In this document: positions 30,196 to 45,384 of the stretch, one piece after another
How positions within the stretch are numbered: the first letter of the stretch is position 1
How the letters are laid out: every line of letters starts with the position of its first letter
Origin: a virus
IMG/VR virus record: IMGVR_UViG_3300010885_029022
Coordinates: 1-45,733 of that record
Strand: one strand, 5' to 3'
Length of the DNA stretch: 45,733 bases
Translations under genes and position numbers: made by a program
Notes under the pieces: model-generated
Databases searched by the model: none
The model's input: only the letters and a program-made list of their open reading frames with translations
Told to the model about the DNA's origin: nothing

Positions 30196-30570
30196 ATGAG
30201 CAATACAGACTCAACCACACCAATTTTTAAATTTAATGATAAAACCTACAACTTTCTAAAGTTTCTAGCTTTAGTTGGGCTACCAACCGTTGCATCCGCA
30301 TATTTTACTCTTGCTGGTCAGCTTAATTTAGCTAATCCAGAAAAGGTTGTTGGTATTCTTACTGTAATTACAACTCTTCTTGGCGTAATGCTTGGTGTGT
30401 CTACAAAGCAGTTCCATAAGTCTGGAGCTGCGTTTGATGGCGCAATTAGCATCACAGAAGGCGCTGATGGGTCTAAGTTATATTCGTTGGATCTTTACGG
30501 AGACCCAAGTACGCTTGATAGTAAGCAGATTGTAAGCTTTAAAGTAGGCAATTCAAATACGCAAGTATAA
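30196..30570 (+). CDS. Putative holin / membrane protein
   Basis: A 124-residue protein with two hydrophobic segments (FLALVGLPTVASAYFTLAG at about 24-42, VVGILTVITTLLGVMLGVS at about 50-68) and a soluble C-terminal half with DGAISITEGADGSKLYSLDLYGDP. I know this arrangement from actinobacteriophage proteins annotated as holins. It lies after the tail genes, next to other membrane genes, which fits. The endolysin that would use it is far upstream at 6283. AGGAG precedes the ATG. Holin call is by family recall and topology. Confidence 0.78.
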   Translation: MSNTDSTTPIFKFNDKTYNFLKFLALVGLPTVASAYFTLAGQLNLANPEKVVGILTVITTLLGVMLGVSTKQFHKSGAAFDGAISITEGADGSKLYSLDLYGDPSTLDSKQIVSFKVGNSNTQV

Positions 30571-30971: not shown

Positions 30972-31028
30972 AACAAGTGCTATAAAAAATTCTAAAAAAT
31001 TCCCCGAAGTAAAAATTTGAAATTAAGT

Positions 31029-31052
31029 CGCAGGAATTACAACTCCTATAAT
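31029..31052 (+). promoter_or_regulatory. Repeated phage promoter, copy 2
   Basis: Same 24-base block as copy 1: CGCA, AATT-ACAA spacer, CTATAAT with TATAAT at 31047-31052, followed by GAGAAG. Upstream DNA is AT-rich. No coding region begins nearby; the next 70 bases form hairpins ending in a T-tract, so it seems to drive a short RNA. A weaker look-alike (ACAAGTG-C-TATAAA at 30974-30986) lies just upstream. Confidence 0.75.
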
Positions 31053-31122
31053 GAGAAGCAGACATCCTCACTGTCTGGCAACCCTTGCAAAAGAAAAAGC
31101 CAAACTTCTCCTATTTTTTTTT
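31053..31122 (+). ncRNA. Candidate small structured RNA 1
   Basis: Between promoter copy 2 and a T-tract (31114-31122) lies a compact fold with no open reading frame of note. Hairpin CAGACA (31059-31064) with TGTCTG (31072-31077) abuts hairpin GCAA (31078-31081) with TTGC (31085-31088); an A-rich strand follows (31089-31104), then CTTCTC (31105-31110), which is complementary to GAGAAG at 31053-31058. The expected start is about 31058-31060, so that closing stem may not be transcribed. The T-tract directly abuts promoter copy 3. Function unknown: an sRNA, or an attenuated leader. Confidence 0.45.
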
Positions 31123-31146
31123 CGCAGGAATTACAAGGCCTATAAT
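31123..31146 (+). promoter_or_regulatory. Repeated phage promoter, copy 3
   Basis: The 24-base block again: CGCA, AATT-ACAA, GGCC, TATAAT at 31141-31146, followed by GAGAAG as in copy 2. It begins at the first base after the T-tract of the upstream RNA unit, so the two units are directly joined. It drives the second structured RNA, and perhaps by read-through the protein genes from 31291. Confidence 0.75.
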
Positions 31147-31152
31147 GAGAAG

Positions 31153-31265
31153 TAAGATAAGACACGAACGTGTAGGTGAAAGACCTACCTATCTGGTGCA
31201 GAAGCTAAGCTGCTAAATTACAATTTTCGTTGGATTGTAAACCCTAGACATCTCATATTTTTTTT
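31153..31265 (+). ncRNA. Candidate small structured RNA 2
   Basis: About 113 bases from the expected start to a T-tract (31258-31265). AGATA (31155-31159) pairs with TATCT (31190-31194) and closes two hairpins: ACAC/GTGT (31162-31173) and AGGT-GAAAG-ACCT (31074 offset: 31174-31186, extendable to GTAGGT/ACCTAC). Then GCAG/CTGC (31198-31213) and a 7-bp hairpin TTACAAT/ATTGTAA (31218-31240). TCTCAT just before the T-tract can pair with ATGAGA at 31145-31150, but that lies at the promoter. It is not a tRNA. It could be an sRNA or a regulatory leader for the gene at 31291. Confidence 0.45.
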
Positions 31266-31290: not shown

Positions 31291-31410
31291 ATGACACGAT
31301 CAAGGCGTTACGGACTTATACACTTTATATTTGATGTTGTGCTCACCGGTCTTACTGGTGGAATCTGGCTTATTTGGGTTCTTATTCGTGAGTTTCAAAT
31401 GAGGCGGTAA
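31291..31410 (+). CDS. Small membrane protein (39 residues)
   Basis: A 39-residue protein: a short basic N terminus (TRSRRYG), one hydrophobic span with FDVVLTGLTGGIWLIWVLIRE, and a basic end (QMRR). I recall this FD-x(4)-T-GG-WL-IW-x-RE pattern from small membrane proteins of actinobacteriophages; no function is known to me. A strong AAGGAG (31276-31281) precedes the ATG. It is the first protein gene after the two RNA units and its stop overlaps the next start by one base. Confidence 0.8.
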   Translation: MTRSRRYGLIHFIFDVVLTGLTGGIWLIWVLIREFQMRR

Positions 31411-31565
31411 TGAAGAAAGCTTACGTTAAACTTAAAGGTTTTATTATTTTAGTTGTACTTGTGCCACCACTTTTAATCATTTACTCAATGGTTCAAACCT
31501 GGACTAAGATAACGACAAGAAAAAAAGACAAATATTGGAAGACGCCATATAAAGAATGGGAGTAG
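31410..31565 (+). CDS. Small membrane protein (51 residues)
   Basis: A 51-residue protein starting in the stop of the previous gene (TAATG). One hydrophobic span (FIILVVLVPPLLIIYSMV, about 11-28) is followed by a basic, polar C terminus with several Trp and Lys (TRKKDKYWKTPYKEW). I do not recognise it. With the 39-residue protein upstream and the two-span protein downstream it forms a run of three membrane genes with almost no spacing. Confidence 0.75.
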   Translation: MKKAYVKLKGFIILVVLVPPLLIIYSMVQTWTKITTRKKDKYWKTPYKEWE

Positions 31566-31566
31566 C

Positions 31567-32307
31567 ATGAACGCTATTGTCGATATTTTTAACAAAGCAG
31601 AACGACTAGTTCAACATAACTCGTCATCAATTTTAACGGCGTTTGGTATCTCTGGTACAATAGGTACTGCATATTTAACAGGTAAAGCTTCGTTTAAAGC
31701 CGCTCATATTATTCAAGAAGAAGAGCGGTTAACAACAAAAAAAGTAGATCCTAAAGATGCAGTAAAGAAAGTGTGGAAACTTTATATTCCAGCTGGGGTA
31801 TCCGGCGTTGCCACAATTGCTTGTATTGTTGGAGTGTCTAAAATCGGTTCGCGACGGACAGCAGCTATCACAGCTGCATATTCTTTAAGCGAAAAGGCAT
31901 TTACCGAATACAAATCCAAAGTTGTAGAAACTCTCGGAGAAAAGAAAGAGAAGAAAATTCGAGATGAAGTATATGAAACTAAAATGTCAAATAATCCTCC
32001 TTCAAGCTCAGGTATTGTATTGGCGGGTACGGGCGACGTACTCTGCTGCGAGACTTGGACAGGACGATATTTTAACAGCGATATGGAAACCATCCGAAAA
32101 GCTGTAAATGTTATTAACGCCAAACTTAATAGAGAAATGGAAGCAACACTAAGCGACTTCTACTATCTAATTGGCATACCAACAACATCGTCGTCATCAT
32201 ATTCTGGGTGGAACTCAGATAAACTTATGGACTTAGATTTTTCCACCCTACTTCATGACGGACGGCCTTGTTTAGCATTCGAATACAATTACGTTAAGAT
32301 TTTGTGA
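31567..32307 (+). CDS. Two-span membrane protein (DUF6353-like)
   Basis: A 246-residue protein with two hydrophobic spans (about 22-40, ILTAFGISGTIGTAYLTG; about 72-90, LYIPAGVSGVATIACIVGV) separated by a charged helix, then GSRRTAAITAAYSLSEKAF and a cytoplasmic-looking domain. I believe this is the DUF6353 family of phage membrane proteins. A paralogue lies at 34449 (LYTPAVVLGTLSIAALTG, RRNTALTAAYATLSAAY). The C terminus has DFYYLIGIP...GW, a module also found in the proteins at 33644 and 34449. Function unknown; a membrane-anchored assembly is possible. Confidence 0.85.
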   Translation: MNAIVDIFNKAERLVQHNSSSILTAFGISGTIGTAYLTGKASFKAAHIIQEEERLTTKKVDPKDAVKKVWKLYIPAGVSGVATIACIVGVSKIGSRRTAAITAAYSLSEKAFTEYKSKVVETLGEKKEKKIRDEVYETKMSNNPPSSSGIVLAGTGDVLCCETWTGRYFNSDMETIRKAVNVINAKLNREMEATLSDFYYLIGIPTTSSSSYSGWNSDKLMDLDFSTLLHDGRPCLAFEYNYVKIL

Positions 32308-33281: not shown

Positions 33282-33284
33282 TAT

Positions 33285-33332: not shown

Positions 33333-33578
33333 ATGAAACTCGATACTTTTAAACTGGCCAGCGCTTTTGTCGTCGGTTCAGGTGTTGGCAAAATCACATC
33401 CACAATAATTAATAACAATGTTATTCCGCAGACGAACCTCCAAAAGGTTCTAGTCGCTGCGGGAAAATTTGGCATTAGTGTTGCGGCAAGTGCGATTGTT
33501 GTTAAGCACACTGACGCCTATATTGACGAATGCGCTGCCATGTACAAATCGTTCAAGCCAATTCTTACCAAGAAGTAA
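33333..33578 (+). CDS. Small membrane protein, second promoter cassette
   Basis: An 81-residue protein with two short, weak hydrophobic stretches (KLASAFVVGSGVGKI at about 7-21, VLVAAGKFGISVAASAIVV at about 39-57), both Gly/Ala-rich as in helices that pack together, and a basic C terminus (KSFKPILTKK). Flanked by promoter copy 4 upstream and a terminator at 33604-33629 downstream, so it is expressed alone. C/G-ending codons are frequent. AAAGGC precedes the ATG. I do not know the family. Confidence 0.8.
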   Translation: MKLDTFKLASAFVVGSGVGKITSTIINNNVIPQTNLQKVLVAAGKFGISVAASAIVVKHTDAYIDECAAMYKSFKPILTKK

Positions 33579-34448: not shown

Positions 34449-35306
34449 ATGAAATTTATACCAGAATCAATCACGCGAACAATCGGTCGTCAAATGATTA
34501 GCGTACAAAAGAACAGCCCACATATTTTGTTTGCAGCTGGCATTGTTGGTATCGTTGGCAGCACGGTGCTTGCTTCTCGAGCAACTCTTAAATTGAGCGC
34601 AGTTCTTGACGAAGCCGAGCACGAAATCACCGGCGTTAAGACCGAACTGAAGCACCGTAAGGGTCAATACCAAAAAGACTTAGCGTACGTCTACACAAAG
34701 AATACAATGGAAATTGTTAAATTGTATACGCCTGCTGTGGTCCTTGGTACGCTCTCAATCGCCGCTCTTACCGGATCGCATATTCAGTTGACGCGACGTA
34801 ATACGGCTCTTACAGCGGCTTACGCGACCCTCTCAGCGGCTTATGACAACTACCGTGATCGAGTTCGTAAAGAAGTTGGCGAAGAACGAGAGATGCATTT
34901 GTACCACAGCGCCACATTGGAAAAGATGATGGTTGCTGGTAAAAACGAAGAGGTTATGGTTGTAGACCCAAATACTTGGTCTCCTTACGCCCGACTCTTC
35001 GACGAGACATCAATTCAATACCACAAGAACGCGGAGTTAAACAAGCTGTTTATATTGGCTCAGCAAAACTACCTAAACGATTTGCTGCGTGCTCGTGGGC
35101 ATGTGTTTCTCAACGAGGCGTATGACGCACTTGGTTTAGAGCGTTCTACTGCCGGTGCAGTTGTCGGTTGGGTAATTGATGTGACCGGTGACAACTATAT
35201 TGACTTTGGTCTTTACAACAAGCAAAGTGCGCGGTTTACAAATGGTATTGAACGATGCGTTGTTCTTGACTTTAATGTTGACGGCGTTATATTTGATAAA
35301 CTTTAA
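34449..35306 (+). CDS. Two-span membrane protein (DUF6353-like), paralogue
   Basis: A 285-residue protein related to the one at 31567: hydrophobic spans at about 27-43 (LFAAGIVGIVGSTVLAS) and 92-110 (YTPAVVLGTLSIAALTG), a charged helix between, RRNTALTAAYATLSAAYDNYRDRV, then a soluble domain. The soluble end has VFLNEAYDALGLERSTAGAVVGW (219-241, shown here in parts) and IDFGLYNK, a module shared with the proteins at 31567 and 33644. It has an AGGAG site. Many C/G-ending codons suggest strong expression. Function unknown. Confidence 0.87.
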   Translation: MKFIPESITRTIGRQMISVQKNSPHILFAAGIVGIVGSTVLASRATLKLSAVLDEAEHEITGVKTELKHRKGQYQKDLAYVYTKNTMEIVKLYTPAVVLGTLSIAALTGSHIQLTRRNTALTAAYATLSAAYDNYRDRVRKEVGEEREMHLYHSATLEKMMVAGKNEEVMVVDPNTWSPYARLFDETSIQYHKNAELNKLFILAQQNYLNDLLRARGHVFLNEAYDALGLERSTAGAVVGWVIDVTGDNYIDFGLYNKQSARFTNGIERCVVLDFNVDGVIFDKL

Positions 35307-44059: not shown

Positions 44060-44132
44060 TCCTCTATAGCTCAGTTGGTAGAGCATCGGACTTTTAATCC
44101 GTGGGTCGCAGGTTCGAAACCTGCTGGAGGAA
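44060..44132 (+). tRNA. tRNA-Lys (anticodon UUU)
   Basis: A 73-base cloverleaf. Acceptor TCCTCTA (44060-44066) pairs with TGGAGGA (44125-44131) with one G-T pair; D arm GCTCAGTTGGTAGAGC; anticodon loop CTTTTAA with TTT; T arm GCAGGTTCGAAACCTGC. CCA is not encoded. It reads AAA/AAG. Confidence 0.96.
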
Positions 44133-44143
44133 CGCAATACTTA

Positions 44144-44227
44144 GCCCAGGTGGCGGAATGGCAGACGCAGAGGACTTAAACTCCTCCGTTCGTAATGGAC
44201 GTACGGGTTCGAATCCCGTCCCGGGCA
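44144..44227 (+). tRNA. tRNA-Leu (anticodon UAA)
   Basis: An 84-base tRNA with a long variable arm, as expected for leucine. Acceptor GCCCAGG (44144-44150) pairs with CCCGGGC (44220-44226) with one A-C mismatch; anticodon loop CTTAAAC with TAA; T arm ACGGGTTCGAATCCCGT. CCA is not encoded. It reads UUA, a codon common in the window's genes. Confidence 0.95.
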
Positions 44228-44254
44228 CTCACCAACAATAAAGGAGATATTCAA

Positions 44255-45186: not shown

Positions 45187-45384
45187 ATGAACCCATCAAC
45201 CAAACTTCTCGATAAGGCTGTCAGTGACCTGACGCTTCGTGATTCACTCAAGATCAACCTCGGTGTTGTGGCAGCATTTGTCGCAATCCCAGTTGCAATC
45301 GGAGTGGGCGCAAGCATCAAGTCAAAGATCAGCACCATCAAGAACAACCGCAAAATGAAGAATACCGAAACAACTGAAAAGTAA
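45187..45384 (+). CDS. Small membrane protein, third promoter cassette
   Basis: A 65-residue protein with a charged N terminus (SDLTLRDSLKIN), one hydrophobic span (LGVVAAFVAIPVAIGVGASI, about 25-44) and a strongly basic, polar end (KSKISTIKNNRKMKN). Flanked by promoter copy 5 and a terminator at 45393-45433, so it forms a single-gene unit. Codons end in C or G far more often than in neighbours (ATC, AAG, AAC), which suggests high expression. AAGGAG precedes the ATG. Family unknown. Confidence 0.8.
   Translation: MNPSTKLLDKAVSDLTLRDSLKINLGVVAAFVAIPVAIGVGASIKSKISTIKNNRKMKNTETTEK

Follow-up and report, generated by a model that had tools for sequence, protein, structure and literature searches.

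A covarying, previously uncatalogued small-RNA family behind a recurrent promoter of phages that encode two-barrel RNA polymerases

The viral DNA analysed here (the window, 45,733 nucleotides, positions 1 to 45,733 of IMG/VR record IMGVR_UViG_3300010885_029022) carries on its plus strand two candidate small-RNA units that directly abut each other, followed by a short operon. The first unit, RNA1 (31028-31122), is composed of its own promoter (31028-31058), an RNA of about 31051-31113 with the closing helix GAGAAG/CTTCTC and a nine-T tract (31114-31122); no close relative of it was found among the other promoter units. The second unit, RNA2, has its promoter TCGCAGGAATTACAAGGCCTATAATGAGAAG at 31122-31152 (PSSM match of 43.5 bits, with 0 matches in a reversed control over 725 kb), an RNA body at 31145-31256 and a U-tract of eight T's at 31258-31265. 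An earlier note on this DNA, made from the letters only, had the promoter of RNA2 start one base past the T-tract of RNA1, and the 30-mer CGCAGGAATTACAAGGCCTATAATGAGAAG indeed lies at 31123-31152, the last T of the tract (31122) also supplying the consensus with its first T. The operon (31291-32307, also plus strand) comprises a 39-aa hydrophobic ORF (31291-31410), a 51-aa ORF (31410-31565) and the gene of a DUF6353 protein (31567-32307). A further DUF6353 protein is encoded in the window at 34449-35306 (PF19880, E-values 3e-74 and 2e-71 for the two), and tRNA-Lys(UUU) and tRNA-Leu(UAA) genes are located at 44060-44228.

RNA2 is closed by helix P1 (ATGAGA/TCTCAT), whose 5' strand at 31147-31153 pairs with 31248-31254 with one A-A mismatch and is extended by A31145 and T31146 pairing with A31255 and T31256. 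The 5' end is predicted within TATAAT, at about A31145, and the predicted first transcribed bases (31145-31153) pair with 31248-31256, directly 5' of the U-tract. With its leading AUGAGA... paired to the stretch in front of the U-tract, the RNA as a whole would make up its own terminator stem, P1 being that stem in a layout common to the family. Inside P1, helix P2 (AGATA at 31155-31159 with 31190-31194) encloses hairpins P3 (ACAC-GAAC-GUGU, 31162-31173), a near-invariant core in which pairing support is weak and A.C is common at one pair, and P4 (AGGU..ACCU, 31174-31186). Helix P7 (GGU 31195-31197 with ACC 31241-31243) encloses P6 (GCAG..CUGC, 31198-31213), which is missing from some members, and the 7-bp hairpin P5 (31218-31240, strands 31218-31224 and 31234-31240), the loop of which, UUUUMGWUGG (31224-31233), is the most conserved loop of the family. 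All parts that the earlier note had placed in RNA2 (promoter, paired ends, a multi-branch fold with the AGATA/TATCT helix around two hairpins, the 7-bp hairpin and the eight T's) were recovered at their coordinates, and arms P6 and P7 are additional to them. The single-sequence fold of the window's RNA2 is modestly better than that of shuffles (z of -2.2), so the case for the RNA rests on comparison. A coding role was considered and rejected: in the window, a frame of 23 codons starts from the AUG of TATAATGAGA, but it is not conserved, the corresponding frames being unrelated and 4-36 codons long.

Comparative sequence analysis identifies RNA2 as a real, conserved and previously uncatalogued family of folded non-coding RNAs that is carried by numerous phages of soil bacteria, with about 36 homologous units in Gordonia, Arthrobacter and Rhodococcus phages and in IMG/VR contigs. 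A blastn search with the RNA2 region retrieved Gordonia phages and one Arthrobacter phage, and relaxing the limit brought in many phages of Gordonia, Arthrobacter and Rhodococcus; further members came from scans of IMG/VR with either motif, core or loop, on its own and from a search among promoter-bearing loci, whereas a scan of genome contigs gave one chance match, in apparent GC-rich coding sequence. A covariance model (R1) trained on 14 members, the window and 13 others, recovers 29 with E-values from 1e-27 to 6e-5; the window, itself a training-set member, matches it at 31148-31254 with 116 bits (E 1.8e-25), showing the covarying P1-P7 fold and the UUUUMGWUGG loop. No Rfam 15 family matched RNA2 above its gathering threshold (best chance matches at E 0.1-5), and no paper describing this RNA or its promoter was found in a literature search, a 2017 Arthrobacter paper mentioning only arrays of small membrane genes.

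In the covariance-model alignment of 29 members, 95.2% of the pair cells are standard pairs and 27 of the 32 pairs have changed on both sides; double-change cells number 179, against 46 in shuffles, and slid controls pair at 30-44%. As this alignment is fitted to the structure, the count was repeated for four helices on a plain, sequence-only MAFFT alignment, in which 94.4% of cells are paired (26-42% in slid controls) and 14 of 17 pairs are double-changed. Double-sided changes affect 6/6 counted pairs of P1, 5/5 of P2, 3/3 of P4, 6/7 of P5 and 4/4 of P6, and the UA pair of P7 becomes CG in L108 and L076 (loci of relatives are given as L numbers); covariation thus supports P1, P2, P4, P5, P6 and P7, P3 being nearly invariant. 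In promoter-proximal members, the bases right after TATAAT (GAGA...) pair with those right before the U-tract. The pairing of P1 is also kept where its 5' strand lies away from the promoter (L073, L076, L080, L082), and in Fazel, Pepy6, LilHuddy and Caterpillar this displaced strand has a different sequence to which the 3' strand is still complementary. Because the 3' strand follows the altered 5' strand away from the promoter, P1 is a property of the RNA. A shorter RNA, type B, is present in Arthrobacter AU phages, often in tandem, with the same promoter, P1, P2, P4 and the loop UUMGWUG. The best matches of a second model, R2, in these phages coincide exactly with the type B units, but at E-values of 0.006-0.2, which makes kinship to RNA2 likely while falling short of proof.

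The promoter of RNA2 is repeated in the window. A second copy of the 30-mer lies at 31029-31058, and not one of 100 shuffles gives even a single copy; of the copies counted by the earlier note, those at 31029 and 31123 hold, whereas its "copy 1" at 30559 is weak and degenerate (24.6 bits versus 43). Further copies were found at 33284 and 45135, preceding small ORFs (81 aa at 33333 and 65 aa at 45187), a position that this promoter usually takes in relatives as well. A 36-column matrix, scanned over 725 kb and a reversed control, yielded 348 sites, and 0 in the control. Within each genome the sites all share a strand, which is the coding one wherever that is known. The consensus reads TCGCArraWTTACAnGsCCTATAATGAGA, or in a looser form TCGCArraWTTACAnnnCCTATAATGAGA. 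Across the 348 sites there is no -35 conservation, a conserved block fills what would be the spacer and the spacing is fixed, from which we conclude that this is not an ordinary sigma-70 promoter. Among strictly filtered units, the 3' base adjoining the closing helix is A in 23 of 32 non-T cases, as compared to 14 of 56 ordinary terminators (p = 4e-5), and this excess suggests that the transcript starts no later than the A of TATA|ATGAGA.

This promoter marks a group of phages that encode a single-chain, two-barrel RNA polymerase of the QDE-1/YonO type. The last large gene of the relatives (883-911 aa) falls in phrog_4291, 'RNA-dependent RNA polymerase', and its product has an invariant GADFDGD and a C-terminal HTH. 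An AlphaFold model of one relative's protein (pLDDT 82.6) matched QDE-1 with a Foldseek E-value of 5e-10 and a Z of about 16-17 over about 360 residues (rmsd 4.0-4.4), and also matched gp64 of Thermus phage P23-45; the modelled protein combines the two-barrel fold with the DFDGD catalytic loop of the QDE-1/YonO type. PF05183 was detected in 12 of 16 members, the best E-value of 0.0014 being below Pfam's cut-off, and phmmer and hmmsearch comparisons with PDB sequences returned only HTH-like or helical-repeat matches. The gene is present in 250 of 50,697 phage records (about 0.5%). By contrast with 0/6 control contigs, it occurs in all 21 contigs of at least 41.9 kb that had been found by the promoter alone, and in 26 of 32 when those of at least 34 kb are counted, one more having only a weak 84-residue match. 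Conversely, all 16 polymerase-found contigs tested carry the promoter (83 sites versus 0 in the reversed control). As the window, a 45.7-kb fragment, stops short of the expected position of the polymerase gene, the polymerase of its own phage is deduced from relatives.

We infer from these sequence patterns that the two-barrel polymerase uses this promoter, although shared ancestry alone could produce the co-occurrence. A T7-like polymerase was discarded as the user: the layout of the promoter is T7-like, but no T7-type polymerase was found and the polymerase is two-barrel. It is also conceivable, if unlikely, that a host RNA polymerase of the sigma-70 type reads the promoter with TATAAT as its -10 element and is assisted by an activator that the phage supplies and that binds TCGCA..TTACA; the phage polymerase would then be incidental. 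TATAAT is a perfect -10 hexamer, and GC-rich hosts often use -10-driven promoters; such a reading has nevertheless to face the filled spacer, invariant spacing and missing -35 described above, the conservation of GAGA right after TATAAT, the 3' A excess by which the closing helix would extend into TATAAT, and the tie of the promoter to the polymerase gene.

Conservation, covariation and the context of the promoter lend strong support to the earlier note's view of RNA2 as a small RNA of its own that is terminated and is made from a promoter present in several copies. The paired regulators, decoys or anti-defence RNAs put forward in that note would be possible roles for it. We lean, with little more than even confidence, towards a free-standing accessory non-coding RNA of about 112 nt plus a U-tail that works in trans, its probable role being that of a structured decoy. 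In this scheme, TCGCA..TTACA..CTATAATGAGA would be the start signal of the phage polymerase, and the first base of the RNA would fall within TATA or directly behind it; the first bases of the RNA would pair with the last ones ahead of the U-tract, P1 serving both as terminator stem and as lock of the fold; and the released, closed RNA, with P2-P4, P6, P7 and an exposed P5 loop UUUUMGWUGG, would accumulate and, we conjecture, serve as a ligand or decoy for a host factor, probably one of defence or RNA processing. An accessory role is indicated by the absence of RNA2 from all 25 polymerase-phage contigs chosen regardless of RNA2 (0/25, in a scan that had no internal positive control).

The chief competitor, less probable in our estimation, is a cis-acting leader, with RNA2 as a conditional terminator, riboswitch-like or an attenuator, that controls the DUF6353 membrane-gene operon. 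When RNA2 folds, possibly with the aid of a ligand, P1 would close and transcription would halt, and otherwise polymerase would read through into 31291. A DUF6353 gene does lie downstream of RNA2 in all 33 loci with enough sequence, the next ORF usually begins 25-50 nt past the U-tract, 20 of the 36 members have no promoter between RNA2 and the gene that follows, and junction and loops, which are conserved, resemble an aptamer. Against this, the other 16 of 36 have another promoter between RNA2 and the next gene, within about 110 nt, DUF6353 is 2.3-4.3 kb away in Gordonia DJ phages, every tandem copy of RNA2 has a promoter of its own, the first gene downstream is not always the same one, and the same places are taken by many unrelated P1-closed RNAs on the same promoter, 47 of which were left by strict filtering. 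Together with the patchy distribution of RNA2, the second promoters, the distant DUF6353 genes and these other RNAs favour the trans-acting RNA over the leader, if not by a wide margin.

Two further explanations carry less weight. RNA2 might act on the machinery of the phage rather than the host, for instance as a polymerase regulator or as a packaging RNA like the phi29 pRNA, a phage RNA of about 120 nt with paired ends and a junction that is, to our knowledge, confined to phi29-like podoviruses. Similar size and paired ends, and a promoter shared with phage genes, speak for such a role, which we nonetheless hold to be improbable: patchiness among polymerase-bearing phages would be unexpected for an essential core component, the terminase large subunit is of the ordinary kind, the helices differ from those of pRNA, and no kissing-loop complementarity was seen on inspection of the loop sequences by eye. 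More improbable still is a degenerate tRNA or tRNA-like relic. In two diverged relatives of RNA2, those of Sporto (L069:6641-6790) and L183:12395, P4 is a canonical, textbook T-arm of a tRNA (GCAGGUUCAAAUCCUGC), a hint that part of RNA2 derives from a tRNA, and neighbouring units in relatives are tRNA-like; yet there is no anticodon arm, the loop of P4 is not conserved, and strong selection acts on a different fold. Neither ARAGORN nor RF00005 makes a tRNA call at the unit, which likewise has no Rfam match, in keeping with the earlier note's remark that it does not fit a tRNA.

Among known systems, YonO of SPbeta is likewise a single-chain two-barrel phage RNA polymerase, and the start of its late operon includes an unannotated non-coding RNA; its promoter was reported as unknown in 2017, and it differs in having one start, a long operon and no described family of structured RNAs (PMC5467207). 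The two-barrel polymerases gp64 and gp96 of Thermus phage P23-45 have mapped promoter motifs, which differ in being described, in the parts of that report consulted, as GC-rich and AT-rich, with no TCGCA..TTACA..TATAATGAGA motif or RNA family appearing there (PMC10770324). Racr RNA anti-CRISPRs are small phage RNAs that likewise act as decoys of host defence and so provide a precedent, but of a different kind, as they mimic CRISPR repeats and RNA2 has no such repeat (PMC10651486).

The present data add an uncatalogued, strongly covarying RNA family that is present in cultured phages, and supply a concrete candidate promoter for one branch of the two-barrel single-chain RNA polymerases; both RNA2 and the candidate start signal are now open to testing. 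As a tentative broader reading, possible rather than probable, phages with QDE-1/YonO-type polymerases may run a dedicated non-coding RNA programme. P1-closed RNAs of dozens of unrelated kinds, among them arrays of tandem hairpins and tRNA mimics that lack an anticodon loop, would be produced in large amounts from promoters belonging to the polymerase and act as molecular decoys or sponges. RNA2, the most widespread of them, would be a riboswitch-like sponge that captures a host factor or a signal of defence. If these RNAs are decoys, phages would be using RNA on a large scale, besides proteins, against host factors.

Several other RNAs from the same promoter were observed. Those at L076:5199-5284, L228:2379-2459, L094:6005-6082 and L073:6061-6135 are tRNA-like, with the anticodon loop seemingly replaced by a tetraloop (UCGUCA-GCAA-UGACGA; CCGC-ACAA-GCGG), and are possibly tRNA mimics; the one in L228 matches RF00005 with 37 bits. 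P1-closed RNAs in which two or three hairpins of the type GUGnAAAAG...CACAC stand in tandem were found at L072:10567, L162:8800, L190:9058 and L238:1395, and further tandem-hairpin RNAs, which look like sponge RNAs as do the former, at L150:11823, L084:13785, L183:12744, L198:5417, L240:2904 and L119:4440.
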